34,352 bases of DNA from a bacterium (GTDB lineage: Bacteria; Spirochaetota; Spirochaetia; Treponematales; Rectinemataceae). Location of the stretch: positions 1-34,352 of the forward strand of contig JAJXVS010000005.1 in assembly GCA_021782015.1 (NCBI GenBank), written 5' to 3'. Below are positions 11,593 through 31,107 of the stretch, piece after piece; position 1 is the stretch's first letter; every line of letters begins with the position of its first letter. A model generated the notes under the pieces. That model did not search any database, was not told the origin of the DNA, and saw only the letters and a list, made by a program, of their open reading frames with translations. The translations under genes and the position numbers were made by a program.

Positions 11593-14500
11593 TCAAATGG
11601 AATTCCACTCGCTTTCCATCTTGGCGAGGGTCTTGGCCGCACCGAATTTGGCGAACAGATCCCTGGCAGAAGAGTAAAAAGCGCTGGCCTTTTCCTGGTT
11701 CCCGCTTCTCTTTTCGAAGAAGGCCCAGGTCCGGAGTGTTTCAGCAAGGCCATCTTCGTTCCCCGACTCGGTCGAAATCCGAACGCTTTCGGCAAAGCAT
11801 TCCCCAGCCGAAACCATGCCGCCCTCATGAATGGATGGATCGACGTCGATGACACCACCGGGCATCTCTGATGCAACGACACCGAGGGAATGCCAGGCCA
11901 GGCTCAGGTCTTCGGGGCTTGAGTTGTCCCTTGCGATTCGAATGGCCTCGAGTGCCTGCGCCAAGCCTTCATCGAATCGTCGAAGCCGGGTAAGAGCCTC
12001 GGAGAGGATCGAGCGGACGACTCCCCCGAGGAGCCATTTTCGCTCTCCGAAAGACATCATAATTGTCATGCTATCCGAGACGATCGCTTCGGGGGATCGT
12101 CCCAATCTGAGCCTGACCGATAGAGCGTTGATGAAGGCGAAGGCCTCCATGTCGCGGTCACCAATCTGTTGGCTGAGCCTCACGTTCTCTTCATGTCGAG
12201 CGAGGGATTCCTCGTCCTCTCCCAGCATCCTCTGTATGATTCCGAGATTGTTGAGGACGGCAACTTCATGATTTCTGTCGCCGAGGAGTCGGTGGAGACC
12301 AAGCGCCTGCTCGAAAAGTTCGCGGGCCCGTAGTGTCTTTCCCTCGGTAGTCTCGATCATGCCAAGCAGGTTGATCGCATGGGCCATTTGGTCGCGCGCT
12401 TCAAAATTCTCGGCAATCGACAGGCTCTCTTCCCCCGCTTTTCGAGCCTTGGCCAGCATTCCAAGATTGAAAAGGGCGTTGCCCTTGAGGCCAAGCGCCC
12501 GCGCCATCAAGAGGAGGCGCGATCTTTCTTCCAACCCTTCCGCCGATCCCATTATGCCTGCCGCATCTTCGGCACTCGCGAGCATCGCGGCGTAATCTCC
12601 TTGGCTTTCGCGCACTCTAGCCAGACCGATGAAAGCCCGAGCCATCCATTCTTTCTCTTCAGCTCTCCCCGCCATTTCCGCAAGAGATTGATAGACATGG
12701 ATTGCCTCGTCATACCGAGCCCTCTTGGAAAGCATTCCTCCGAGCCCGTCGCGCCACGAATATTCGAGTTTTGAAATCTCCTCATAGCTGGTTGATTCTA
12801 TCGCCCCTTCGAAGCGATAGTCCGACTCTCGATTTGGTGACGAGAGCAAAAACAGGTTCAGGGCCTTTTGATAGAATTCGATGGCAAGCTCGGGAGCGTA
12901 GGTAGCTCGCGCGTGATCGGCGGCTCGACCGAACCAGAGCGCCGCATCGATCGTGAGGTTGGCCCTCTCGAAGTGTTCTGCAATCAATCCGGCATAGTCG
13001 GGAGCCCCTTCGCCGCTCGAGGTGAGGAGCCATTGAGCGGCCTTGCCGTGGAGAATTTTCCTGTCACGGAGAAGGACAGACTCATAGGCGACATCGTGGA
13101 GAAGGGAATGCCTGAAAATGAATTCCGCAGTGCCTTCAAAGGACGAATCCTTTCTCGCCCGGATCAGGTCCTTGGCCTCGAGGTTACCGAGGGCCTGGCG
13201 AGTTGAAGTGTCCCTTGTGTCTTGAGTCTCTATCTGGGTCAAGGCAGATACGGCATCATCCCAAAACACCTTGCCGATAATCGCCCCTTTCCTGATGGCT
13301 CCTCGTTCCGCCTCGGGAAGTCCCTGCAAGCGAGCCTGGAGGATGCCGGCCAATGTGGGAGGCACCTTGAGAAGGGAAAGCGGCCTGGGCGAAAAACGCC
13401 ATCGGTCAGGCCCGAGCACGATGAAACCTTCATCCACGAGCATATTGACCAGTTCTTCGACATAGAAAGGATTCCCGGCGGAGTTGTCGACAATCAGGTC
13501 CTCGAGCTCCTTTGGAGCGCCATCCGCCATCTGGAAAATGTCTGCGACAAGTCTTCGGACCTCATCTGACGCGAGAGCCTGAAGATCGATGCGCCGATTC
13601 GACTCTTTTATTCCATCTGATCGGAGAATGGACACACCATCCCAGTCGGCATGTGCCTCGAAAAAAGTCGGTCGTGCAGTGCAGACAATCATGATCGGGC
13701 GATCGCTACAGGCAGACCGAAGCCAGGCCGTCGCATCGAGAGACCCTTCGTCGATCCAGTGGATATCTTCAAGAATTATCTTGACAACTGCCCCTTCACC
13801 TTCTGCCTGGACTGCTGCCTCGAAAAAGCCGGCCATGTGGTGAAAGGCTATATTCCTTATCTGAAGCGGGTCTTCAAGAATTCCCTTGAGCCAAGGACTG
13901 TCGCGATAGTCGAAGCCGAGAAGGTGACCTATGAAATGGGCCTTCTCAAGGCCATCAGGCCCCATTAGGCCCGCTATGCCTGTTTCGAGCAACTCGCGGC
14001 ATCGTACCGATCCCTCGCTCTCGTTTATTCCGAAATGCGAAAGAAACAGATCCCGCATCAGGCGAAATGGGATATTGCGAGTCTGTTCGACGCAACGGCC
14101 ATGGAACAATGCGACCCTTCCGGCCTGCGCTTCCCTCCAGAGCTGAAACTCATGGATAAGGCGGCTCTTCCCCATCCCGGCATCGCCCGAAACGGTAACA
14201 AGGTGAAAACGCCTTTCCTCGCGAGTTTCGAGGAAGGCATTTTGCATGCTGCTGAGAGCTTCATCACGGCCCACCATTTTCGTGGTGATGCCTTCTATTC
14301 CACGATTGGCCGAGCGGAAAGATCTCGGTCGCTTGGCTTCCACAACAAAGGTCTGGACCGGATCCTTTTTCCCTTTGACCATCAAGGGCGCCTGTGCTGC
14401 GACCACATACAGTCCCCGCACATGCCGATAGGTGTTATGCGAAACCAGGATTCCGCCAATTGGAGCCGCATGTTCCATCCGGCTCGCAAGATTTACGGCG

Positions 14501-15072
14501 TCCCCCATGGCGGTAAATTCCCGATTCGAGCCCATCCTTCCGAGGAGCACAAGTCCCGTATTCACTCCGATGCGCATCCGGAGCGCCGGCCGCCCATTTA
14601 CAGCACCTTCGCGATTCGCCATCCCCTCCATCAATCTATCGTTATAGCTAAACTCTTCCATGACCTTCCGCATCGCCAACGCCGCATCGAGGGCAAGCTC
14701 GGGATGGTCCTCGCGGGGCCCGAGCGCCCCGAAAAGCGCCATGACGGCATCACCTATATGCTTGTCGATCATGCCTCCATTATCGATGATGGCTTTGTCC
14801 ATCTCCCGCCAGAGGTTGTTCATGATTTCGGCCACTTCCTCAGGATCGAGGGTCTCGGACAGGGCGGTGAAACCGGAAACATCGGCAAACAGGATTGTCA
14901 CGTTCTTCCGTTCCTCGGCAGGTGAAATCTGGGCAGACTTTGCAATTCCGGAAAGACTTGCGAGTTTCTCGCGCATCGGCCCGAGTGCCGAGTCGACAAC
15001 CGCATCTCCAAGTAGCTGGCGCCGTGCCTCGAGGGCCGCTATCGCATCCGCGAGTTTTTCCGCTTCCGTCAT
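11593..15072 (-). CDS. Class III adenylate/guanylate cyclase fused to AAA ATPase and TPR repeats
   Basis: VTILFADVSGFTALSE, GGMIDKHIGDAVMALFG, FTAMGDAVNLASRME (catalytic residues present); VSGDAGMGKSRLIHEF Walker A; KIILEDIHWIDEGS Walker B-like; long TPR-like C-terminus (e.g. ARELFEQALGLHRLLGDRNHEVAVLNNLGII). Confidence 0.9.
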   Translation of the reverse strand: MTEAEKLADAIAALEARRQLLGDAVVDSALGPMREKLASLSGIAKSAQISPAEERKNVTILFADVSGFTALSETLDPEEVAEIMNNLWREMDKAIIDNGGMIDKHIGDAVMALFGALGPREDHPELALDAALAMRKVMEEFSYNDRLMEGMANREGAVNGRPALRMRIGVNTGLVLLGRMGSNREFTAMGDAVNLASRMEHAAPIGGILVSHNTYRHVRGLYVVAAQAPLMVKGKKDPVQTFVVEAKRPRSFRSANRGIEGITTKMVGRDEALSSMQNAFLETREERRFHLVTVSGDAGMGKSRLIHEFQLWREAQAGRVALFHGRCVEQTRNIPFRLMRDLFLSHFGINESEGSVRCRELLETGIAGLMGPDGLEKAHFIGHLLGFDYRDSPWLKGILEDPLQIRNIAFHHMAGFFEAAVQAEGEGAVVKIILEDIHWIDEGSLDATAWLRSACSDRPIMIVCTARPTFFEAHADWDGVSILRSDGIKESNRRIDLQALASDEVRRLVADIFQMADGAPKELEDLIVDNSAGNPFYVEELVNMLVDEGFIVLGPDRWRFSPRPLSLLKVPPTLAGILQARLQGLPEAERGAIRKGAIIGKVFWDDAVSALTQIETQDTRDTSTRQALGNLEAKDLIRARKDSSFEGTAEFIFRHSLLHDVAYESVLLRDRKILHGKAAQWLLTSSGEGAPDYAGLIAEHFERANLTIDAALWFGRAADHARATYAPELAIEFYQKALNLFLLSSPNRESDYRFEGAIESTSYEEISKLEYSWRDGLGGMLSKRARYDEAIHVYQSLAEMAGRAEEKEWMARAFIGLARVRESQGDYAAMLASAEDAAGIMGSAEGLEERSRLLLMARALGLKGNALFNLGMLAKARKAGEESLSIAENFEARDQMAHAINLLGMIETTEGKTLRARELFEQALGLHRLLGDRNHEVAVLNNLGIIQRMLGEDEESLARHEENVRLSQQIGDRDMEAFAFINALSVRLRLGRSPEAIVSDSMTIMMSFGERKWLLGGVVRSILSEALTRLRRFDEGLAQALEAIRIARDNSSPEDLSLAWHSLGVVASEMPGGVIDVDPSIHEGGMVSAGECFAESVRISTESGNEDGLAETLRTWAFFEKRSGNQEKASAFYSSARDLFAKFGAAKTLAKMESEWNSI

Positions 15073-19675: not shown

Positions 19676-19761
19676 TCGGAGGGCCCTGGCAAGAAAAAAG
19701 CGCCCCAGTCCGGGCGGCGGGGGCAGCGGGCGTCAATCCAGGAACGGGTGGCTCAACTGCA

Positions 19762-19793
19762 GGGGGGCGACCGGCGATGGCCGGTCGCCCCCC
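19762..19793. terminator. Strong hairpin in convergent intergenic region
   Basis: GGGGGGCGACCGGC-GATG-GCCGGTCGCCCCCC, 14-bp perfect stem, followed by more C and TTATT. Confidence 0.75.
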
Positions 19794-19804: not shown

Positions 19805-20959
19805 CTAAATCTGGACCCGCAGAGCCAGGGTCAGGCCAAGCCCGTTCAGAGTCGTGCCCGAAATCAAGGATGCAGAGCTGAGATTCGAAAGGCTCGGCAA
19901 CTGGACAATCGGGCGCTCAAGATCGAGCGAGGTCGCGATGGTCAACACGGCCGCGACTATCTTGACTTCGAGTCCACCCGAAAGCACCAAAGAGGCATCC
20001 TCTGAGTGCAAAGAGACCGGTGCGCTCAAGGTCTGGGAGATTGTGGTTGCCGAGGTCGTGGAGGTCGTGGCCGATGTGACGGTAGCTTTCACATCGAAAT
20101 TGGAGGAATAATCAGTAATATGATAATATGCTCCCACTTTGGCGAATGGCGTGAGCACCCAAAGCACGGTCTTGGACGCGCTGAAAAGCGCACCGATGGT
20201 ATTCACGCGGGAATGGAAGCCGAGGCTCCCACTCATATCGATCGTGCCGAGCCCTTGAAGTACAGGGGCCTGCATTCCAATTCCCCCAAAACTGAAATTG
20301 CTTACCGAGAAATCGAAACTCGAATAGGTGTAACTCAGTCCCAAGGAAACTGAGGGAGTGAAATACCCGGTGCTGTCCGAGAGAATGACCTTCCTGACAA
20401 GGCCCCCTGCGGATAGTACACCCATGTCCGCTCCCAATTTCTTGAGGTCGATGGGCATGCTGGCGCCGAAAGCGTTGACAGCCGATTCAGTCATGGCCGT
20501 TGAAAGATAGAAACCATTGGCGAAAGCCTCAAAGCCCCCCGGCAGAGCGAGACCGGCACCAAAGCGAAACGCCGGAATCGCGAAGGCATTCGTGGTTGCC
20601 ATGGTGAAAACATCGGCCGGCATGTTCGCCGACACCAGATTGGGGATCGAAAGAAGCGAAAACTTCCAGACATTAGGCGAGTTGCTCCCCAGCGCTTTCG
20701 AAAAACCGTCCATGGTCGCTATCGAAACACCGGCGAATGTCAAGGTGAGTCCAACTCGGCCTTTCAATTTGGCCTCACCCACAAAATCGTTCCCGGAAAT
20801 GGCGAGTTGATGAAGCCGAGGGCTGAGATCCTGGCCTATTGACGTAAACAGAGTCGTGACATCGGTATTGAGCGCGCTGAAATCGAGGAGGGACTGGGCA
20901 AAAGCTCCGAATGCAAGCGGAACCAAAAGGAAAAATGCGAGGACCTTCGATCTAATCAT
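19805..20959 (-). CDS. Hypothetical exported, probably outer-membrane protein
   Basis: Signal peptide MIRSKVLAFFLLVPLAFGAFAQ; alternating beta-type composition, SD AAGGAG upstream; last gene of minus-strand operon. Confidence 0.65.
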   Translation of the reverse strand: MIRSKVLAFFLLVPLAFGAFAQSLLDFSALNTDVTTLFTSIGQDLSPRLHQLAISGNDFVGEAKLKGRVGLTLTFAGVSIATMDGFSKALGSNSPNVWKFSLLSIPNLVSANMPADVFTMATTNAFAIPAFRFGAGLALPGGFEAFANGFYLSTAMTESAVNAFGASMPIDLKKLGADMGVLSAGGLVRKVILSDSTGYFTPSVSLGLSYTYSSFDFSVSNFSFGGIGMQAPVLQGLGTIDMSGSLGFHSRVNTIGALFSASKTVLWVLTPFAKVGAYYHITDYSSNFDVKATVTSATTSTTSATTISQTLSAPVSLHSEDASLVLSGGLEVKIVAAVLTIATSLDLERPIVQLPSLSNLSSASLISGTTLNGLGLTLALRVQI

Positions 20960-20981
20960 GCCGGTGCTCCTTGTCTCGCCA

Positions 20982-22604
20982 TCATGGGGCTTGGTTCACC
21001 TGAGCATAGGTCAGGAGAACGACACCATTGGTTCCCGAGACCATGAGGCCCTGGGTCGTCCAGGAAAGATCGCCGGTCGCCTGGGCATCGCCGCCAAAAT
21101 CGGGGAGTCCCGAAAAGAAGGGATAGCTCTTGAATAGCCCCCCGTCCTTAAGGAGGTAAAGGGCCCCGCCCCTGCCGAGAACCGCGATCCAGACGTGACC
21201 ACCATTGATCGTGGCCCTCAGTTTGGCGACCGAAACGGCCTTGCCCAAAACGATGGGCTGGGCTGCAAGGGGTGTTCCGGCGCTATCGACAAGCATGCCG
21301 TCCGAACCAATACCTTCTATTGCGAAGACACCACGGTCACTGCCCACATAGAGAGTTCGCGTGGTACCTGAGATGACTTCGGAAACGCTCGTGGCCAGAG
21401 GTGCCGCGCCGGAAACCGAGGGAAGCGAAATCGTATTGTTCTTGAGCACCGCATTCAGCAAATCGGAAAACTTGGGATTCTGCCCGAGGGCATTGATGGT
21501 CGAGACCACATCGCCTCCGACCCGGAAGTTGTTGATCGCCGGCACGGCGAGATAGCCAAAGTCGTTCGTCGCGTCGATCGAATAGTCGGCGATTATCGGC
21601 TTGTCGCTGCTGGTGATCGAATCCTTGAGGGTCGATCCCAGTTGATCGAGGTTGGCTGCAAGATCGAACCATCCCCACCCGCCGTTGGAACTGTATGCCC
21701 CGCCCAAGGTGCCCTTTGGACCTTCATAGAAGATGACATTCTGGGCCTTGCTTACAGATGGCGTCACGGTGTTGTCCACATAGTTAAGAGGAATGGCGCC
21801 CGCCGCATCGACTTCTCCCACTGCGAGCGGGTTTCCGGAGGCATCCTTGATTGAAAGCTGAGAAATACCCATTGATGAGCCTGTTCCGCCCAAGGCCCAA
21901 ACACCCCTGTCCGTGCAGATCCAAAGAGCATCGGCCCCGAAACTCCCGTCGCTGTTCATTACCTTGCCCGCACCGAGGCCGTTTGCTTGCGTAATACCAT
22001 TCGTGCCGGCGATCGAGAGCGTCCCGGTCTGATTTCCGGCGTCGTCAAATACACTGAGCACACCATTGGCGAGATAGTAAGTGGCGGAGCCAAGGGCGAG
22101 CGCTCGAACCCCGCGGAGATCACTTGTCGTAAAACTGTCCTGGAAGGGGCTTGGCTGGACCGTCAGGTCAACGGTGGTGGTGGTGCCGGCGACGATATTG
22201 AAAGGGTCCTTGGATACGGCGAACTTCACCGCCCGAAAATCCGTTCCACCTTTTGCGCTCAAAGCGAGGTACAGTGAGCAATTCTGAAGTTGCGGCAAAC
22301 CATCGATGGTCAGAGCGCCATTCAGGGGAACGGGCGCCTCGAAAACGGGAGAGGAACCGGCAAGGGGGACGAGCCCTCCCCTCGATTCAAGGTATATCCG
22401 GACAACCTGGGCCCCCATCCCTGCAGGGAGCATCGCGCGTGATGCGAGTGCATTTTTCGAGAGCCCCGTGTTTGATTCCAAGATCGCCGAAGGAAAGGGA
22501 ATGCTCAACTTTCCGCTCGGCGGCCCCATCAGGGAGCAAGAAGACACAGCCGTGGCAATCAAAAGAGAGAATACTATGTGCGAAACTACACCGTGTCGTT
22601 TCAT
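20982..22604 (-). CDS. Hypothetical lipoprotein with beta-propeller-like repeats
   Basis: MKRHGVVSHIVFSLLIATAVSSCS lipobox; recurring DRGVWAL / DRGVFAI / GGALYLL / TNGVVLL segments. Start 22604 follows AGGAGG. Confidence 0.65.
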   Translation of the reverse strand: MKRHGVVSHIVFSLLIATAVSSCSLMGPPSGKLSIPFPSAILESNTGLSKNALASRAMLPAGMGAQVVRIYLESRGGLVPLAGSSPVFEAPVPLNGALTIDGLPQLQNCSLYLALSAKGGTDFRAVKFAVSKDPFNIVAGTTTTVDLTVQPSPFQDSFTTSDLRGVRALALGSATYYLANGVLSVFDDAGNQTGTLSIAGTNGITQANGLGAGKVMNSDGSFGADALWICTDRGVWALGGTGSSMGISQLSIKDASGNPLAVGEVDAAGAIPLNYVDNTVTPSVSKAQNVIFYEGPKGTLGGAYSSNGGWGWFDLAANLDQLGSTLKDSITSSDKPIIADYSIDATNDFGYLAVPAINNFRVGGDVVSTINALGQNPKFSDLLNAVLKNNTISLPSVSGAAPLATSVSEVISGTTRTLYVGSDRGVFAIEGIGSDGMLVDSAGTPLAAQPIVLGKAVSVAKLRATINGGHVWIAVLGRGGALYLLKDGGLFKSYPFFSGLPDFGGDAQATGDLSWTTQGLMVSGTNGVVLLTYAQVNQAP

Positions 22605-22615
22605 CTCGCTACCTC

Positions 22616-23566
22616 CTAATTCCACTGCACGCGAATGCTGCCGCTCTGCTGCCCGCCATGAGGTCGAACGACCGGCGGCAGCATGAAGCCTCCGCCAGGC
22701 ATCGGCTGGCCCGAACCGCCACCCATCCCCCCGCCTTGGCCTGGCAAGGCAGGACCACCTCCGACGATTTGAGACGGCTTGCCACGAGCGGGGCCGCTCT
22801 GTGGAGCAAAATCAATCTGGAGCGCCGCGGAATATCCTCTGCCCACGAAAACAATTTGCCCGGGGATATTCGACGAAGACTGGCCGGGCATGGAAGAAAG
22901 CGGGGCTCCTGACGGGGTAATCGACTGACCAGCCGAATTCACAATAGAAAACGAATCTCCCTGAAACTCTCCCTGCAAGGCCGTCATTAAGGCTGCGGTA
23001 TTCGAAGACCCGCTCGAACCAGCACCCTGTTGGGGTGATCCGCTCTCGCCAGCCTGGGAGGAAGTCCCTCCCCCCATCGATGCCGGCATAAGAATATCTC
23101 GAACAGGACGTCCCGGAATGAAGGCAACCCGGCCATCGCGCACCTCAAGGGCGAGTCCATCATAGGTGAATTGGGTCCCTCTAACGGAAGCCGTCGAATA
23201 GGGACTTGTCACATTGAACTCCTGTGCGATGCCAGCCGATGATTTGACCTGCGCCGACACCGAACCAACCCGCAGATTTAGGTTCGTCCGAAGCGACCCC
23301 GCCTGGGACAGGATCTTGTCGATGGTAAGGCGCGTCAGAGGCGCAACCGAAACACGATTTTCCGCGATGGCAAGCACGGCCGTCGAGTCGAAACCTGTCG
23401 AAACGGTCGCGAGCATGTCCAGTTTCATTCCGTTCGTCGCGGGCTTCCAAGCGCCGCCCAAAGCTTTCACCTCTACCTTGCCTTTGATGTCTTGGAGGAC
23501 AGCCGTTTCGGCCGCGAGTGCGAGAGCCGAAATGAGTGAAAGGACAACCATCAAGATCTGTTTCAT
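22616..23566 (-). CDS. FecR-domain exported protein with Gly/Pro-rich C-terminus
   Basis: Signal peptide MKQILMVVLSLISALALAAE; GFDSTAVLAIAENRVSVAPLTRLTID, LRVGSVSAQV, FNVTSPYSTASVRGTQFTYDG typical of FecR domains; C-terminal GGGMGGGSGQPMPGGG. Confidence 0.8.
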   Translation of the reverse strand: MKQILMVVLSLISALALAAETAVLQDIKGKVEVKALGGAWKPATNGMKLDMLATVSTGFDSTAVLAIAENRVSVAPLTRLTIDKILSQAGSLRTNLNLRVGSVSAQVKSSAGIAQEFNVTSPYSTASVRGTQFTYDGLALEVRDGRVAFIPGRPVRDILMPASMGGGTSSQAGESGSPQQGAGSSGSSNTAALMTALQGEFQGDSFSIVNSAGQSITPSGAPLSSMPGQSSSNIPGQIVFVGRGYSAALQIDFAPQSGPARGKPSQIVGGGPALPGQGGGMGGGSGQPMPGGGFMLPPVVRPHGGQQSGSIRVQWN

Positions 23567-23575
23567 CGATTCCTC

Positions 23576-24931
23576 CTACAGCGCGATCGAGAGACCGGCG
23601 CTGACCGCGTACCCGAAAGGCGATTTCTGGATGTACGAAGAGTCGTAACTGCCAGCAAAAGGCACATAAAAACCAAACGAAGTAGTCAGATTCACATCGC
23701 TGAGCAAACGAACAGTTCCTCCCAGATCTTCCTCAACCCCGAGAAGTCCAAGGCCCGCCGTGGGGAGCACGCCCGATAACGATACGGGCCCCGTTCCATT
23801 CTTGACATAGAGAAGCGTCTTTGAACTCGCTTGCACGGCTCGCAGGCCGATTAGTTCAGAAGGAAAGGGCTGGAAGTAGAAATCAGCTTCAATCTGCGTG
23901 AGATTGGCCGGGTCCGGGGACAGCACGAGGCCAACCGGTACCGTTATGGGAACAAATTCCGTGGCATTGCCGCTTGTGTTGCCTGAAGTTGCTGTCTGCG
24001 CATCTGGATCGCCGGAGCCATAGAGTGCGCGAAGCCCCCCCGACATGCCGGGGCCGAGGGCGAGTTGAGCCTGGGCCCCGAAGCTCCAGGCGCGAACGGC
24101 CGCATATTCATATATATAACCAGTTGTCGAGGTCGCGCTGGTAACATAAGACAAACTTCGTCCAAATTCGAATATTCCGAATGCCGAATACGAGAGCATG
24201 GAAGTAGGATTTCCCGTGAAACCGGCCGAAAGGTAAGCTGAACTGGCCGGACCGCTGCTCGAAAGGTTTTGCACAGTCTGATATTCTTGAATTAATTGGT
24301 TAGGATTTCGGAGATCTTCCTGCACAGTGAAGGCAAAAAACGCGTCATGATTGCGAATCCTGGGACTTCGAAGGCCGAAAGTGGCGACGGCGCGCGGAGG
24401 AGCGAAGTCGGGATCACCATAGGTCGAATCGGCCGTCGTGGAGATCAGCGGAGCCGTAGAGGGAAGCAAACCTGTATATCCGAGCACGACCCTTAGGGAG
24501 AGAATCGGATAGACAGCCTGGAAATTGAATCCGTCCAGCCTGTAGGCGAAGAGCGACCCGGTCGGATCCACATAATAGAAACGTCCGATCGCGAAGGCGA
24601 GCCGGTCGAGCCCCTCCTTTTCGCGAGGGGCGGAATAGGATAGGTTTAATTCAGGGATATCAATTCCCGACAGGGTCCAGGGGAGGGTCGGCGTCGTCGT
24701 ACCGCTGGCGCCATCATAACTTCCGCCAACCGTGAGGGTTAAGCCCGATCGGAAGCTCCATCCTTTACCAAGAGGGCTGGAAAAGGTGAGACCGGCCGAC
24801 TGGTCAAGCTGGCCGCTGACATCAGCGAGCTTGGTGTACAACCCGCTCGTCGAAAGCGAAAAATCCAGGCTCTGCGCCTGAGCAGCGGCGAGGACAGCGA
24901 CCATAAATAAAGTAAATATTATTTTCTTCAT
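23576..24931 (-). CDS. Hypothetical outer-membrane beta-barrel-like protein
   Basis: Signal peptide MKKIIFTLFMVAVLAAAQAQ, many short amphipathic beta-like segments, aromatic-rich; SD GAGGTG. Confidence 0.65.
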   Translation of the reverse strand: MKKIIFTLFMVAVLAAAQAQSLDFSLSTSGLYTKLADVSGQLDQSAGLTFSSPLGKGWSFRSGLTLTVGGSYDGASGTTTPTLPWTLSGIDIPELNLSYSAPREKEGLDRLAFAIGRFYYVDPTGSLFAYRLDGFNFQAVYPILSLRVVLGYTGLLPSTAPLISTTADSTYGDPDFAPPRAVATFGLRSPRIRNHDAFFAFTVQEDLRNPNQLIQEYQTVQNLSSSGPASSAYLSAGFTGNPTSMLSYSAFGIFEFGRSLSYVTSATSTTGYIYEYAAVRAWSFGAQAQLALGPGMSGGLRALYGSGDPDAQTATSGNTSGNATEFVPITVPVGLVLSPDPANLTQIEADFYFQPFPSELIGLRAVQASSKTLLYVKNGTGPVSLSGVLPTAGLGLLGVEEDLGGTVRLLSDVNLTTSFGFYVPFAGSYDSSYIQKSPFGYAVSAGLSIAL

Positions 24932-25383
24932 TTTTTCACCTCGCTCAAGGCCGAGACCTTGCCGAGCATGCGAACGACTTCATCGCCTGAAAGAATCCGC
25001 TTCGGACCGCCCGAAGCATTGGCGATGCCTTGGGCTATCAGCTCGCGATAGGCGTAACGTCGTGTTGCAAAAAGGCTCCAGCCCAAGCCGCCCTTTACCT
25101 TAAGCGCCTTCATGGACAGAAAGCAGAATGATTCCAAATCTACCGGATCACCGGCCGCGACCGATTTTCCTATCCAGCCTTTGGACTGGGCCATGTCGAA
25201 GGCCGCGCCAGGTTCCGCAGACTCGTCTATCCAACCTCCGCCGACCATCGCAAGGTAAGCGGAATCGGCGAAATCAGCCTTGGGCTGGGCGAGAAGCGAA
25301 TCCATCACCTGGTTCGACTGCCCCGCGACAGCCCCTCCCACCAGGCAGAAAAAAGCCAGGAGCGTAACGCAACGTGGTTTCAT
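24928..25383 (-). CDS. Hypothetical small exported protein
   Basis: Signal peptide MKPRCVTLLAFFCLVGGAVAGQ; stop overlaps the next gene's start (ATGA); GGAGG upstream of ATG 25383. Confidence 0.6.
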   Translation of the reverse strand: MKPRCVTLLAFFCLVGGAVAGQSNQVMDSLLAQPKADFADSAYLAMVGGGWIDESAEPGAAFDMAQSKGWIGKSVAAGDPVDLESFCFLSMKALKVKGGLGWSLFATRRYAYRELIAQGIANASGGPKRILSGDEVVRMLGKVSALSEVKK

Positions 25384-25403
25384 CGCCACATCTTCCTCCA
25401 TTT

Positions 25404-25432
25404 TTGACCACAAGCTCGCGGCGAACTATAAT
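25404..25432 (+). promoter_or_regulatory. Sigma70-type promoter for CHASE2-cyclase gene
   Basis: TTGACC (25404-25409), 17-bp spacer, TATAAT (25427-25432); ATG at 25474. Confidence 0.75.
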
Positions 25433-25473
25433 GGCATATTGTATCTCATGGAAGTGATTTTTGGGAGAGTTCC

Positions 25474-28185
25474 ATGCCGGAAAAATTGCGGCCCTTGGTC
25501 ATTCCGTCCCTTGTTGCGATCGCGGCGGCTCTCGCGACGCTCTTCGGTCTTTCCTCATCCCTCGATTGGAAGCTCTATGATCAGATGCTTCACGTACGAA
25601 AGGCACCAGTCGAGGACCCGGCCATGCTCCTGGTGGACATCGACGACCCAGCCATCGCCGAAATAGGCACCTGGCCCATCGGCAGGGATGTCATCGCCGG
25701 CGGACTCGCCACCCTAGGCGAATTCGGCGCGAAGAGCGTGACCTTCGATATTGAGTACGTCGATCCGAGTCCCCGAGGCATCGATGGGCGGTATCTTTCT
25801 GAAAATGTCCCCGAGGCCTTCGCCGAGGGCTTCGGCTCGCTCTCTACGAACATCCAGGCGCTTTTCGACGCCCTCGCGAAGAAACAAATTCCCCTATCCG
25901 CGGCCGAAGGCTACGTCAAGGATCTGACGGGGTTGACGGACAAGGTGCGCGACGATCTTCTCGCGAAGGTCCGCGAAATCGCGTCCGACAACGATACCGA
26001 ACTCGGCAGGGCGGCGCTCTATAGCGGACAAGCCTACTTTACCGTCAACATGCGGCGTGATGCCGGCTCCGCGAGTTCGCGGCCAGCGGTGGCCATCGCG
26101 GAAAAGATCGCGGGTCATGCGCTCCCCCCGTCGGCATCCGGATACCTGGCCCGGGCAAAAGGCATACTACCCACGATTTCTCCCATCCTCCAGAATGCCG
26201 CCGGGGCTGGATTCCCCAACGTCTACATCGATCCGGACGGCGTGCGTCGCAGGATCGATCTCTTCTATGAATATAACGGCAAGCTCTATGCCCAACTTGT
26301 CATGGAGCCTATCCTGGCGATGCTGGGGCCGACCTCCATCGATGTCGAAAAATCGGAATTCGTCCTAAAAGGGGCGAAACTCCCCTCGGGCGAAATCACG
26401 GACATCACCATACCACGGACGGATGATGGCAGGATGCTGATCGATTGGCCCCACAAATCCTATCTGGAGAGCTTCAGGCATCTTTCGTTCAGGGAACTGG
26501 TGGTGTACGACAAGCTCTTTGGCGACCTCGCCCAGAATCTCCGAATTCGTGACAATTGGGGCTATTATTCGGCCTACCAGGGTTCAACCTCCCTGGCGGC
26601 CCAGGCGGCCGCCATTCAGGAGCGGCGTCGGACCGACCTGACGGGGAGCGATTCGCTGCCGCCGGACGAGGCCGCCCAGGTGGGCGCCGCCCGCGATGCC
26701 TTGATCGCCGCATGCAAGGCCTTCCTGGCCACGAAGCCCGAAGATGCGATTCTCGCCCAGGTGAACGCCCTCCTCGCCTCCGGGCAACTCGACGCGGCGA
26801 CGCGCAGCCAGTATGAGACAATACAGAAGGACGCTCCGAGCTACTTCGCAGCCACGCGGGGCATAGTAAACGACCTGGCCACCATCCACGACGATTTGGC
26901 GCGCCGCGTCGGGAAGGCCTTCTGCGTCATCGGCTATACCGCCACGGGGACCACCGATATCGGCGTCAATCCCTTTTCCGGCGAGTACGTCAATGTCGGC
27001 ACCCATGCCGCCACCTTCAACACAATCCTCCATCGCAGCTTCATCGTCGAACTGCCTTCATGGGTTGCCCTCCTCCTCGCCATCGCCATTTCGTTCGCCC
27101 TCGCCTTTATCGTCAGGGGCAAGGTGCCTGCCCTGGCGATGGGTATCGGCCTCGGAACCACGGTGGTTCTGGGAGGGGGGATCGTGGCGCTCTTCACAAC
27201 TGCCAGTATTTTCCTGGCCCCTGCCCTCCCCATCCTTTCGGCCTTCGTGACCTTTCTGAGTTCGACCATCGTGGATTTTCTCAGGACGGAACGAGAAAAG
27301 GGCTTCTTGCGCAACGCGTTCTCGCACTACCTCTCCACCGATGTCATCAAGGAAATCGTGGCGAACCCGGAAATGCTGAAGCTCGGCGGAACGAAACGGG
27401 TAATGACGGCCATGTTCACCGACATACGAGGCTTCTCCACCGTTTCCGAAAAACTCGCGGCCGAGGACCTCGTCCGCCTCCTCAACCGCTACCTGACGGG
27501 GATGAGCGACGTCATACTCGATCTCAAGGGGACCATCGACAAGTATGAGGGCGATGCCATCATCGCCTTTTTCGGGGCACCACTCGAGCTGCCCGACCAC
27601 GCGGCGCGAGCCTGTTCTGCCGCGGTGCGCATGAAGCGGATCGAAGCCGAGCTCAATGCGCGATTCCTTTCCGAAGGGATCGCACCCTCGCCCCTCCTGA
27701 CGCGCGTGGGAATCAACACGGGCGAAATGGTGGTCGGGAACATGGGCACCGACCGCAAGATGGACTACACGATCATCGGCGACGCGGTGAACCTCGCGGC
27801 CCGGCTCGAAGGCGTCAACAAGCAGTACGGCACCTGGGTCTGCGTGGCCGAGGAAACGATGGCGGCGGCCGGCAAGGATTTCATTTTCAGGAGGCTCGAC
27901 AAGATACGCGTCGTCGGGAAGAGCAAACCCGTCATCCTCTACGAATTGGTAGAAGAAAAAGGTTCCGCGACTGAGAAACAGAAGGCCCTGCTCGGGCGCT
28001 TCGATGAGGCGCTGCGCCTCTTCGAAGACCGCGACTGGGCAAGGGCGAAGCAGTCATTCCAGGCCTGTTTCGCCGAGGTTCCGGACGATGGTCCTTCAAA
28101 GACCTATATAGGACGATGCGACGCTTTTATCCTGAAACCTCCGGCGGCGGACTGGGATGGGGTTTACAACCTCACGATGAAATAG
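25474..28185 (+). CDS. CHASE2-domain class III adenylate/guanylate cyclase
   Basis: N-terminal TM then CHASE2-like extracytoplasmic domain (DPAMLLVDIDDPAIAEIGTWPIGRDVIAGGLATLGEFGAKSVTFDIEY), TM helices around 27060-27270, cyclase domain MTAMFTDIRGFSTVSE, GTIDKYEGDAIIAFFG, DYTIIGDAVNLAARLE. Confidence 0.92.
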   Translation: MPEKLRPLVIPSLVAIAAALATLFGLSSSLDWKLYDQMLHVRKAPVEDPAMLLVDIDDPAIAEIGTWPIGRDVIAGGLATLGEFGAKSVTFDIEYVDPSPRGIDGRYLSENVPEAFAEGFGSLSTNIQALFDALAKKQIPLSAAEGYVKDLTGLTDKVRDDLLAKVREIASDNDTELGRAALYSGQAYFTVNMRRDAGSASSRPAVAIAEKIAGHALPPSASGYLARAKGILPTISPILQNAAGAGFPNVYIDPDGVRRRIDLFYEYNGKLYAQLVMEPILAMLGPTSIDVEKSEFVLKGAKLPSGEITDITIPRTDDGRMLIDWPHKSYLESFRHLSFRELVVYDKLFGDLAQNLRIRDNWGYYSAYQGSTSLAAQAAAIQERRRTDLTGSDSLPPDEAAQVGAARDALIAACKAFLATKPEDAILAQVNALLASGQLDAATRSQYETIQKDAPSYFAATRGIVNDLATIHDDLARRVGKAFCVIGYTATGTTDIGVNPFSGEYVNVGTHAATFNTILHRSFIVELPSWVALLLAIAISFALAFIVRGKVPALAMGIGLGTTVVLGGGIVALFTTASIFLAPALPILSAFVTFLSSTIVDFLRTEREKGFLRNAFSHYLSTDVIKEIVANPEMLKLGGTKRVMTAMFTDIRGFSTVSEKLAAEDLVRLLNRYLTGMSDVILDLKGTIDKYEGDAIIAFFGAPLELPDHAARACSAAVRMKRIEAELNARFLSEGIAPSPLLTRVGINTGEMVVGNMGTDRKMDYTIIGDAVNLAARLEGVNKQYGTWVCVAEETMAAAGKDFIFRRLDKIRVVGKSKPVILYELVEEKGSATEKQKALLGRFDEALRLFEDRDWARAKQSFQACFAEVPDDGPSKTYIGRCDAFILKPPAADWDGVYNLTMK

Positions 28186-28194
28186 GAGCTTCGA

Positions 28195-28223
28195 TCGGTG
28201 AAGTCGGTCTCAGGCTTCACCGA
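28195..28223. terminator. Possible convergent hairpin at 3' ends of cyclase and response regulator genes
   Basis: TCGGTGAAG (28195-28203) / CTTCACCGA (28215-28223), 9-bp stem; no clear U tract. Confidence 0.4.
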
Positions 28224-28953
28224 AGGGGTCGAGGAGGACAAGGGATCCCAGGTCTTCGTCAAGTGCGCCGATCAGGGGTTTCGTGCGCATCGTGAACTGC
28301 CGGACTGCCCCATCGGCTGCCACGGCGAAGCGGACCGCATCGGGCAAAGGGCTTGAGGATTTTCTGTTGCCGGTTCCCATGTCGATGAAGCGGGTAAGCG
28401 GCTCGCCGCGCAGGTCGTCGAAATCGACGAGTCCGAAAATGGCAAGAGCAGCCTTGTTGGCGCAGACGGCCAGGCCCGAGGGATCGAGGATGATGGCCGG
28501 CTCATCGAGGGCCATCAGAAGCGGCGCGCAGGCGAGGAGGGACGCGGAACCTCGAACAGGGGGCGACGCCGCAGGCTTCTTGCGAAAGGACGCGAGAGCC
28601 ATGGCTATATTGGCGGCCAGTTCCCTTTCGTTGAAGGGCTTGAGCAGGTACGCGGAGGGCGCTGTGAGCATGGCCCGCGCCAGGGTTTCCTGGTCGGAAT
28701 GGGCGCTGAGGAAAATTACCGGAAGGTCGAATTCTGCCTTTAGCCTGAAAGCGGCGTCTATTCCATCGGCCGACCCTTCGAGCCGGATGTCCATGAGAAT
28801 CAGGTCCGGTTGACACCGATTGACCTCCTCGGCAATTCCGTCGCTCGTCGAAAGAAGCTTCGGAACGACATAGCCGAGTCGTTCAAGGTCCTCCCGAATT
28901 TCCTCGCCCACGAGGGGCTCATCCTCCACCACCAGAATCTTTTCCTTTGACAT
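28210..28953 (-). CDS. Response regulator: receiver plus PAS-like domain
   Basis: EKILVVEDEPLVGEEI...PDLILMDIRLEGSADGIDAA...PVIFLSAHSD...APSAYLLKPFNEREL; C-terminal PAS-like DEPAIILDPSGLAVCANKAALAIFG. Start 28953 after GGAGGG. Confidence 0.85.
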   Translation of the reverse strand: MSKEKILVVEDEPLVGEEIREDLERLGYVVPKLLSTSDGIAEEVNRCQPDLILMDIRLEGSADGIDAAFRLKAEFDLPVIFLSAHSDQETLARAMLTAPSAYLLKPFNERELAANIAMALASFRKKPAASPPVRGSASLLACAPLLMALDEPAIILDPSGLAVCANKAALAIFGLVDFDDLRGEPLTRFIDMGTGNRKSSSPLPDAVRFAVAADGAVRQFTMRTKPLIGALDEDLGSLVLLDPFGEA

Positions 28954-28991
28954 TGTTCCTCCCTGCCAGGGCAAATTCCCAATGTGGGCAC

Positions 28992-30992
28992 CTACCTTAA
29001 GCCTGCCACTTCATGAATATGTGTTTCCGCGACAATCTCGCTCTTCCTGAAGGGCAGGCGGACCTCCACGCAACCGCCTGCGCCCGCGATGATTTCCACT
29101 CGCCCACCCCTCGCCATCACGATGCTCGTAACAATCTTGAAGCCAACGGATGAATCGGTCTGAATCGAGAAATTCTCAGGAAACCCCGGCCCACTGTCGC
29201 AGACCGACAACGAGAGCCCTCCGTCGATTGCCGCAATCTTGACCTTCATTCGCCCTATGCCCCCATCGGGGAGGGCGTGCCTGAATGCGTTGGCAGCGAG
29301 CTCCGCCAGGACGAGGCCGAGATCGATGCAATAGGACGCAGGTATGCGCAGCGGGGCACATTCGAGTTCGATGCGAGAACTCTCCTGACCGCCGAGCCCC
29401 ATCGAGAGCCTGTCGAGAAGCTCGCGGGCGTAGGTGAGAACGTCCAGCTTGTCCTCGGAACCGGACTCGTAGAGCTTTTCGTGAACAAGACTGATCGCCC
29501 GAATCCTGTCTCGGAGAGAAGACAGCGCCCTCGCAGCGGTCTCATCTTCGATCCGATGCGACTGGAGTCCCGCGATGCTCGAAACGATTTGCAGGCTGTT
29601 CTTGATCCGATGATGAATTTCCTGGAGGTGGGTTTCCTTTTCGGCGACGAGAAGTTCGAGGTGCCAGCGAGCCTCGCGGTGGCCCTCGATCTCCCGCGAA
29701 AGCCGCAGGTTCGATTGCCGTAGTTCGACCGACAAACGCTCGTTGTCGCTGAAGGCCTGCGAATAGCGACGAGCGAGGACAAAGTCCTGCATTAGTACAA
29801 ATATTCCCATCGCTGCCGGAATCGCATTAAAGGTAGAAATTATAAAGGATGAAAAGAGCATATCGTTGACGGCCGCGACGGCGACAATGGCGCTGGCGGC
29901 GAGAAGGATACCGCTGCCGGGTCTTCTCCGCGAAGCCGCCCTTGCGAGAATCAGCACAATGGTGCAGCACATGAGGATCAGGGCGACAGGGTAATAGTAG
30001 GAGATGCTTCGTGTCAGAAGACTGAGCGGGGCCCACGCAATGAGCAAGGCAAAGGGCACATGCGGAAGGACGAGAAGAAGGAGCAGCTTCCGGCTTATCT
30101 CGGTCGAGAATAGCGAAAAGAAAAAGAGGGTCGCGAAGGGAATCAAGAGAAAGGCTGTCAGGTATTCTATCCTGATCAGTGAATCAAAGGGCAGGCCGGG
30201 AAAAAGCGCGACAAGGACATACTCCCCGGTGACGAGACTGCGGAGGGCGACGAGGAGGGAAAAGACCGCAAAATAGAGGTAGCTCCTTTCTTTCGACCTA
30301 TGGGCGAAGAGAAGCAGGGCGTGAATCGACATGGCCGTCAGGGCGGCGGCGAGGCCGATCGCGAATGCCGAGTCGAAAAAGCGGGCGTTCACGAGATCCG
30401 AATGCCTTCCGATGAAGATCGGCCTCCAAAGCCCACCGGAACGATATGCGTAATTGGATACTTCCACGAGGAGATGAAGTCGGCCATCCGGGCTGGCCGG
30501 GAGGGCCAGGATGCCGGGGCGATAAGCCGGTATCGCAAGACGTGGATCGAGGGAAGGCCTCCCGGCGCCGCCGATCACCCTTCCATCCGCGAAAAGGGTG
30601 AAGGCCGTCGAGACCGTAGAATACCGCAGGGCGAGTCCGGTCGAATCGGGAGGAAGGAGAATATCGAGGCGGTAGGTACCGGCGCCCTCTCCCTTCATCA
30701 CGCCTCCCGCCGCCCCCTGCCATCGATCAGGGACATGGCGGGGGACAAAGTCGCCGGCGGTGAGGGCCTCCGCCGGGTCGTAGAGTCTGCCGCGAGCGAA
30801 ATACCAGCTGCCGATGAGGGCCACGGGTCCCCTGTCGAAATCCCAGGCCCTCAGGTCGATGGTACCTTCCCTGGCCCTGGGCGGCGCGGACAGCCCTCCC
30901 TCGACTTCGGCATGTGCCGGAAAAGCGAGCAAAGGGAGGGCGGCAAAAACGACTATGGCGGGATGCCAAAGACGCGGCCGGAAAGAGATCAT
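28992..30992 (-). CDS. 7TMR-DISM sensor histidine kinase (HisKA_2/HATPase)
   Basis: N-terminal jelly-roll-like extracytoplasmic region, about seven TM helices, LQEIHHRIKNSLQIVSSIAGLQSHRIED H-box, HATPase (LAELAANAFRHAL, VCDSGPGFPENF). Confidence 0.87.
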   Translation of the reverse strand: MISFRPRLWHPAIVVFAALPLLAFPAHAEVEGGLSAPPRAREGTIDLRAWDFDRGPVALIGSWYFARGRLYDPAEALTAGDFVPRHVPDRWQGAAGGVMKGEGAGTYRLDILLPPDSTGLALRYSTVSTAFTLFADGRVIGGAGRPSLDPRLAIPAYRPGILALPASPDGRLHLLVEVSNYAYRSGGLWRPIFIGRHSDLVNARFFDSAFAIGLAAALTAMSIHALLLFAHRSKERSYLYFAVFSLLVALRSLVTGEYVLVALFPGLPFDSLIRIEYLTAFLLIPFATLFFFSLFSTEISRKLLLLLVLPHVPFALLIAWAPLSLLTRSISYYYPVALILMCCTIVLILARAASRRRPGSGILLAASAIVAVAAVNDMLFSSFIISTFNAIPAAMGIFVLMQDFVLARRYSQAFSDNERLSVELRQSNLRLSREIEGHREARWHLELLVAEKETHLQEIHHRIKNSLQIVSSIAGLQSHRIEDETAARALSSLRDRIRAISLVHEKLYESGSEDKLDVLTYARELLDRLSMGLGGQESSRIELECAPLRIPASYCIDLGLVLAELAANAFRHALPDGGIGRMKVKIAAIDGGLSLSVCDSGPGFPENFSIQTDSSVGFKIVTSIVMARGGRVEIIAGAGGCVEVRLPFRKSEIVAETHIHEVAGLR

Positions 30993-31107
30993 CCCGGAAG
31001 TATAGAGCATTTCACGGACCGAAAGCCATCATGAGGTCATTCCATTCCGGAAAGGCAGCGTAAGGATCGCCCCCCGGTCAGGCCGTCTCACTCTGGAAGA
31101 AAACGAC

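Follow-up and report, generated by a model that had tools for sequence, protein, structure and literature searches.

A conserved four-gene set in Spirochaetota pairs a predicted outer-membrane barrel and an SLH-like protein with a FecR-domain protein and a CHASE2 adenylate cyclase

We found that a divergent CHASE2 cyclase gene and the first three genes of a neighbouring operon, which encode a small protein, a first barrel and a FecR-domain protein, form a conserved module of four genes in spirochaetes. The preliminary description of this DNA had taken all five exported genes of the operon as one set beside the cyclase; the last two, for a lipoprotein and a second barrel-like protein, turned out to be accessories that occur mainly in close relatives, so that the conserved module has four genes and not six.

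The window, that is the whole stretch of 34,352 nucleotides that was analysed, is part of a 3.85-Mb spirochaete draft genome. The layout reported earlier was confirmed throughout, with five tightly packed genes running from 25383 to 19805 on the minus strand. The gene for the small exported protein (151 aa, 24928..25383) overlaps by ATGA (24928-24931) that of the first barrel (451 aa, 23576..24931), and 9 nt separate the barrel stop from the gene for the exported FecR-domain protein (316 aa, with a variable Gly/Pro-rich tail, 22616..23566). The TAG stop of the FecR gene does sit within the Shine-Dalgarno sequence of the next gene, ATTAGGAGGT, and this next gene (20982..22604, starting with the ATG at 22604) encodes the lipoprotein that had been called propeller-like, with the lipobox ...ATAVSSC; its stop lies 22 nt before the last gene, for the second barrel-like exported protein (384 aa, 19805..20959). 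All five products have an apparent signal peptide when read by eye, in agreement with their earlier description as exported, and the fourth has the lipobox in addition. Downstream of the last gene, on the same strand, lie two hairpins (19701..19793), the second followed by CTTTTTTCTT, and with this T-run they are likely to be the operon terminator. The CHASE2 class III adenylate cyclase (903 aa, 25474..28185) is encoded divergently on the plus strand, behind a sigma-70-like promoter (TTGACC-17-TATAAT, 25404..25432, plus strand) that agrees at 11 of 12 consensus positions and is a consensus match only; no CRP-like palindrome was found above chance. Elsewhere in the window, a 7TMR-DISM histidine kinase gene followed by a response regulator-PAS gene (28210-31010) is convergent with the cyclase gene and appears to be an ordinary two-component pair, and another class III cyclase of 1159 aa, with AAA_16 and TPR regions, is encoded at 11593-15072.

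The conservation of this set was examined by scanning the profile of each protein in six frames over relatives; longest-ORF calling had hidden real genes in GC-rich loci. In most of the loci fetched by the cyclase, the small gene, the first-barrel gene and the FecR gene (hereafter the triad) were found together beside it, and the core genes are adjacent in 35 four-gene cassettes. Since the loci of this first scan had been picked by the cyclase, two further checks were made, one on 39 whole related genomes and one by a search with the barrel only. In the 39 genomes, each of the 20 barrel genes had the small gene upstream and the FecR gene downstream, both adjacent, although FecR matches number no more than about 109 in the 120 Mb of these relatives; the linkage is far beyond chance. 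The long CHASE2 cyclase was present in 13 of the 39, and the triad in 12 of these 13 and in none of the other 26 (12 with both, 1 with the cyclase alone, 0 with the triad alone, 26 with neither; Fisher p 3e-9, shared ancestry ignored); the genome with a cyclase in which the triad was not found is 88% complete. Nine of the 20 triads of this sample lie away from the cyclase. The barrel-only search found relatives of the barrel in 117 of 296 Spirochaetota genomes, and we read 40 barrel loci, of which 39 were taken from this search so as to cover different families and one came from a search of Brocadiia. The small gene was the barrel's most constant neighbour (40/40), followed by the FecR gene (within 1.5 kb in 37/40) and the cyclase (within 7 kb in 27/40); about a third of these loci had no cyclase within 7 kb, some of them at contig ends. 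Loci picked by the barrel alone show several gene orders, and the linkage to the cyclase has thus survived rearrangement. The gene-neighbourhood check proposed in the preliminary description therefore came out in favour of co-occurrence of the operon core and the cyclase, both by genome and by locus. Furthermore, the genome of the window carries a second cassette, on contig C200, and within either cassette the four genes largely share their nearest relatives, as expected if the cassette is inherited as a unit.

Some of the loci deserve separate mention. Full four-gene cassettes were present in two genomes labelled or grouped as Ca. Brocadiia (L144 and L198), which may reflect horizontal transfer or mis-binning. 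A 4.06-Mb genome in a single contig has four triads (L151, L152, L153, L059), each in a different neighbourhood and only one of them near a CHASE2 cyclase. In a 1.14-Mb relative without CHASE2 (L161, 3223-8565), the genes for a HAMP-type cyclase and a P83/100 homologue are followed by a FecR gene, which here adjoins a different type of cyclase.

The two accessory genes have relatives only in part of the lineage, those of the lipoprotein being confined to L034-L037, L071, L072, L081 and L182. Elsewhere other lipoproteins, some with GLUG or InlB-like repeats, fill the neighbouring place, and a good part of the triads have lipoproteins beside them. A link between the N-terminus of the window's lipoprotein and the lipoproteins of other cassettes was considered and rejected, as no profile link was found and what is left is a motif-level likeness.

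The earlier FecR and CHASE2 cyclase assignments were upheld by Pfam. The FecR-domain protein matches PF04773 (E 6.7e-7, 30.1 bits against a cut-off of 24), which identifies it as such, and its SVRGT motif is invariant. The cyclase matches PF05226 (CHASE2, E 6.3e-32) and PF00211 (Guanylate_cyc, E 5e-19), and D650, K690, D694, N773 and R777 are invariant in 18 relatives. Class III cyclases use such residues as a metal-binding Asp pair, an adenine-type Lys and a transition-state Asn and Arg. With a CHASE2 domain and a class III catalytic domain that has these key residues, the protein can be assigned, by its sequence, as a CHASE2 adenylate cyclase. The other four products, namely the small protein, the two barrel-like proteins and the lipoprotein called propeller-like, gave no Pfam match above the cut-off.

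For the first barrel, AF2 predicted 18 strands (mean pLDDT 77.7), and its 17 best PDB fold matches are all AlgE (E 1e-16), followed by the SLH-porin OmpM1, which is also the only outer-membrane protein among the five PDB sequence hits of the barrel profile. The Pfam family Alginate_exp (PF13372) matches 5 of 21 barrel relatives, the best with 1.2e-11, and does not match the window barrel. While AlgE, the alginate exporter, is its best fold match, identity to the first barrel is 11-14% and no alginate genes lie near the window cassette. Of the two proteins described earlier as barrel-like, the first can thus be regarded as a predicted outer-membrane barrel; for the second, the support consists of a strand-like alternation in its sequence (z 3.6 against shuffles).

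The preliminary description had missed that the small protein has an SLH-like predicted fold. The AF2 model is helical (mean pLDDT 92.2). SLH domains account for all 14 of its best PDB fold matches, and below these the scores collapse; the 14 matches have a probability near 1, but E values of 0.03-0.3 and TM of 0.5-0.57. Neither a Pfam SLH match nor the TRAE motif supports SLH by sequence, PF00395 having no match in 21 members of the small-protein family or anywhere in the window's own genome; the likenesses that did turn up, to one SLH protein (weak and local) and to SpaA-SLH (near E 1), are not significant. Because the fold E values are only of this order and the sequence tests fall short of significance, we call the protein SLH-like and not SLH. 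Canonical SLH is itself almost absent from these bacteria (2 of 30 genomes searched). An independent hint at the place of the small protein at the cell wall comes from four relatives (L045, L075, L087, L155), in which its domain and an OmpA peptidoglycan-binding domain (E 1e-18 to 1e-21) are fused in one protein.

Parts of this arrangement resemble systems known from other bacteria. In Sinorhizobium meliloti, cyaK is preceded, with a 1-nt overlap, by a gene for a 1190-aa protein that combines FecR and TPR with a barrel-like C-terminus and which from its position next to cyaK we take to be NsrA. The CHASE2 cyclases are reported to produce cAMP in response to a plant protein, with the outer-membrane barrel NsrA as the mediator (PMC13001267). 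The NsrA / CyaD1, CyaD2, CyaK / Clr system is like the spirochaete set in that a FecR domain, an outer-membrane barrel and a CHASE2 adenylate cyclase are encoded together, and the FecR domains align by profile (E 1e-5); it differs in that FecR, TPR and barrel are joined in one protein, whereas the spirochaete has separate genes, an additional SLH-like protein and no TPR domain that we could find. Homology between the barrels themselves was rejected, since no significant profile match was found and they belong to different families. Just upstream of the S. meliloti operon there is a PycTM (Pycsar effector-like) gene (L175, 1934-2476). In Campylobacterota a CHASE2 adenylate cyclase is clustered with phosphodiesterase, FecR and TPR, which were proposed to act in one pathway (PMC9239204); the cyclase is likewise beside a FecR-domain protein, but the phosphodiesterase and the TPR protein belong to that cluster, and an SLH-like protein and an AlgE-like barrel were not reported there. 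The Burkholderia BiofilmReg operon has a LysM-FecR wall-binding protein beside a CHASE2 receptor, but there CHASE2 belongs to a histidine kinase that comes with a response regulator, and there is no barrel (PMC5192318). OmpM and the SLH-porins of diderm Firmicutes also pair an SLH-type module with an outer-membrane barrel, as one polypeptide forming a 16-strand trimeric porin with canonical SLH (PMC10628300), whereas in the spirochaete there are two genes with a cyclase as partner, the barrel has 18 predicted strands and a canonical SLH sequence is lacking. FecR/CHASE2 neighbourhoods were also present in Geobacter-, Pelobacter- and Nitrospirae-labelled loci. The system is therefore not undescribed in kind, as had been suggested, given the neighbourhoods reported in Campylobacterota and Burkholderia and the barrel reported to act through CHASE2 cyclases in Sinorhizobium. 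The open-licence papers searched contained no description of the spirochaete set, whose novelty lies in the separation of its parts, in the SLH-like protein and in its distribution across the phylum.

We hypothesise that the set is, rather probably, a wall-anchored trans-envelope sensor that controls cAMP. The AlgE-like barrel, in this lineage with a lipoprotein and perhaps a second barrel, would meet a signal from outside, possibly a ligand, while the SLH-like small protein would bind the wall and hold the complex there. The periplasmic FecR-domain protein would touch the barrel, read its state and pass it inwards to the inner-membrane cyclase through the latter's large periplasmic CHASE2 domain, and the cyclase would then raise or lower cAMP, its presumed product, to be read by CRP-type proteins; the genome has 13 matches to cNMP-binding domains. 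The earlier proposal of an outer-membrane part with a matching inner-membrane CHASE2 cyclase is supported by the co-occurrence of core and cyclase and by the prediction for the first barrel; for the core, neither of the two refuting outcomes named with that proposal was observed. Compared with a same-genus relative, identity is 81% for the catalytic domain of the cyclase, 61% for its periplasmic part and 37-49% for the five exported proteins, and within the FecR-domain protein it is 72% for the domain but 26% for the tail; such faster divergence would be expected of exported and periplasmic parts exposed to a varying outside. Classical FecIRA surface signalling was set aside, as neither an ECF sigma factor FecI nor a TonB-dependent receptor FecA is encoded among the six genes, and the receiver would be the cyclase.

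The same parts could also be read as a monitor of envelope integrity, which we consider possible but distinctly less probable than a sensor of outside signals. The small protein and the barrel would be a split SLH-porin tether of the OmpM type, and FecR and CHASE2 would report slack or damage in the link between outer membrane and wall and not an outside ligand. The SLH-like predicted fold, the OmpA wall-binding fusions, the constancy of the small gene beside the barrel and the place of OmpM1, next after AlgE in fold and alone of its kind among the sequence hits, all agree with this, as does the union of tether and porin in OmpM (PMC10628300). However, the barrel fits AlgE better than OmpM, and the variable lipoproteins and fast-diverging exported parts look more like sensing of the outside.

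If the likeness to AlgE and the Alginate_exp family, the best Pfam family for the barrel, is given more weight, the barrel could move a polysaccharide, a lipoprotein or a nutrient, with the cyclase regulating transport or being regulated by it and with no dedicated sensing complex. The lipoproteins that accompany many triads would suit such an export or uptake machine, but we regard it as unlikely, since the constant partners FecR and CHASE2 are sensor parts and the flanking genes examined (dehydrogenase, DUF445, URO-D, histidine kinase/response regulator, cytochrome b-like) include no polysaccharide-synthesis gene. That some triads lie far from a cyclase would be compatible with genes for exported proteins that stay together because they are regulated together and that have no pathway in common with the cyclase; this is very improbable in view of the genome-by-genome co-occurrence and of a linkage that has held through changes of gene order and strand, both across the phylum and in two genomes from a different lineage.

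More speculatively than for the wall-anchored sensor itself, the split SLH-anchored barrel, the FecR-domain protein and the CHASE2 cyclase might together be a phylum-wide device of Spirochaetota that ties the attachment of outer membrane to wall to cAMP, in which interchangeable surface lipoproteins would set what is sensed. The small protein also points to the use by spirochaetes of an SLH-like module beside an outer-membrane barrel, in genomes that almost lack canonical SLH. Moreover, little is known of the input of CHASE2, a common sensor domain of bacteria, and the set gives it defined partners across a phylum, with which a route from the outer membrane to cAMP becomes testable.
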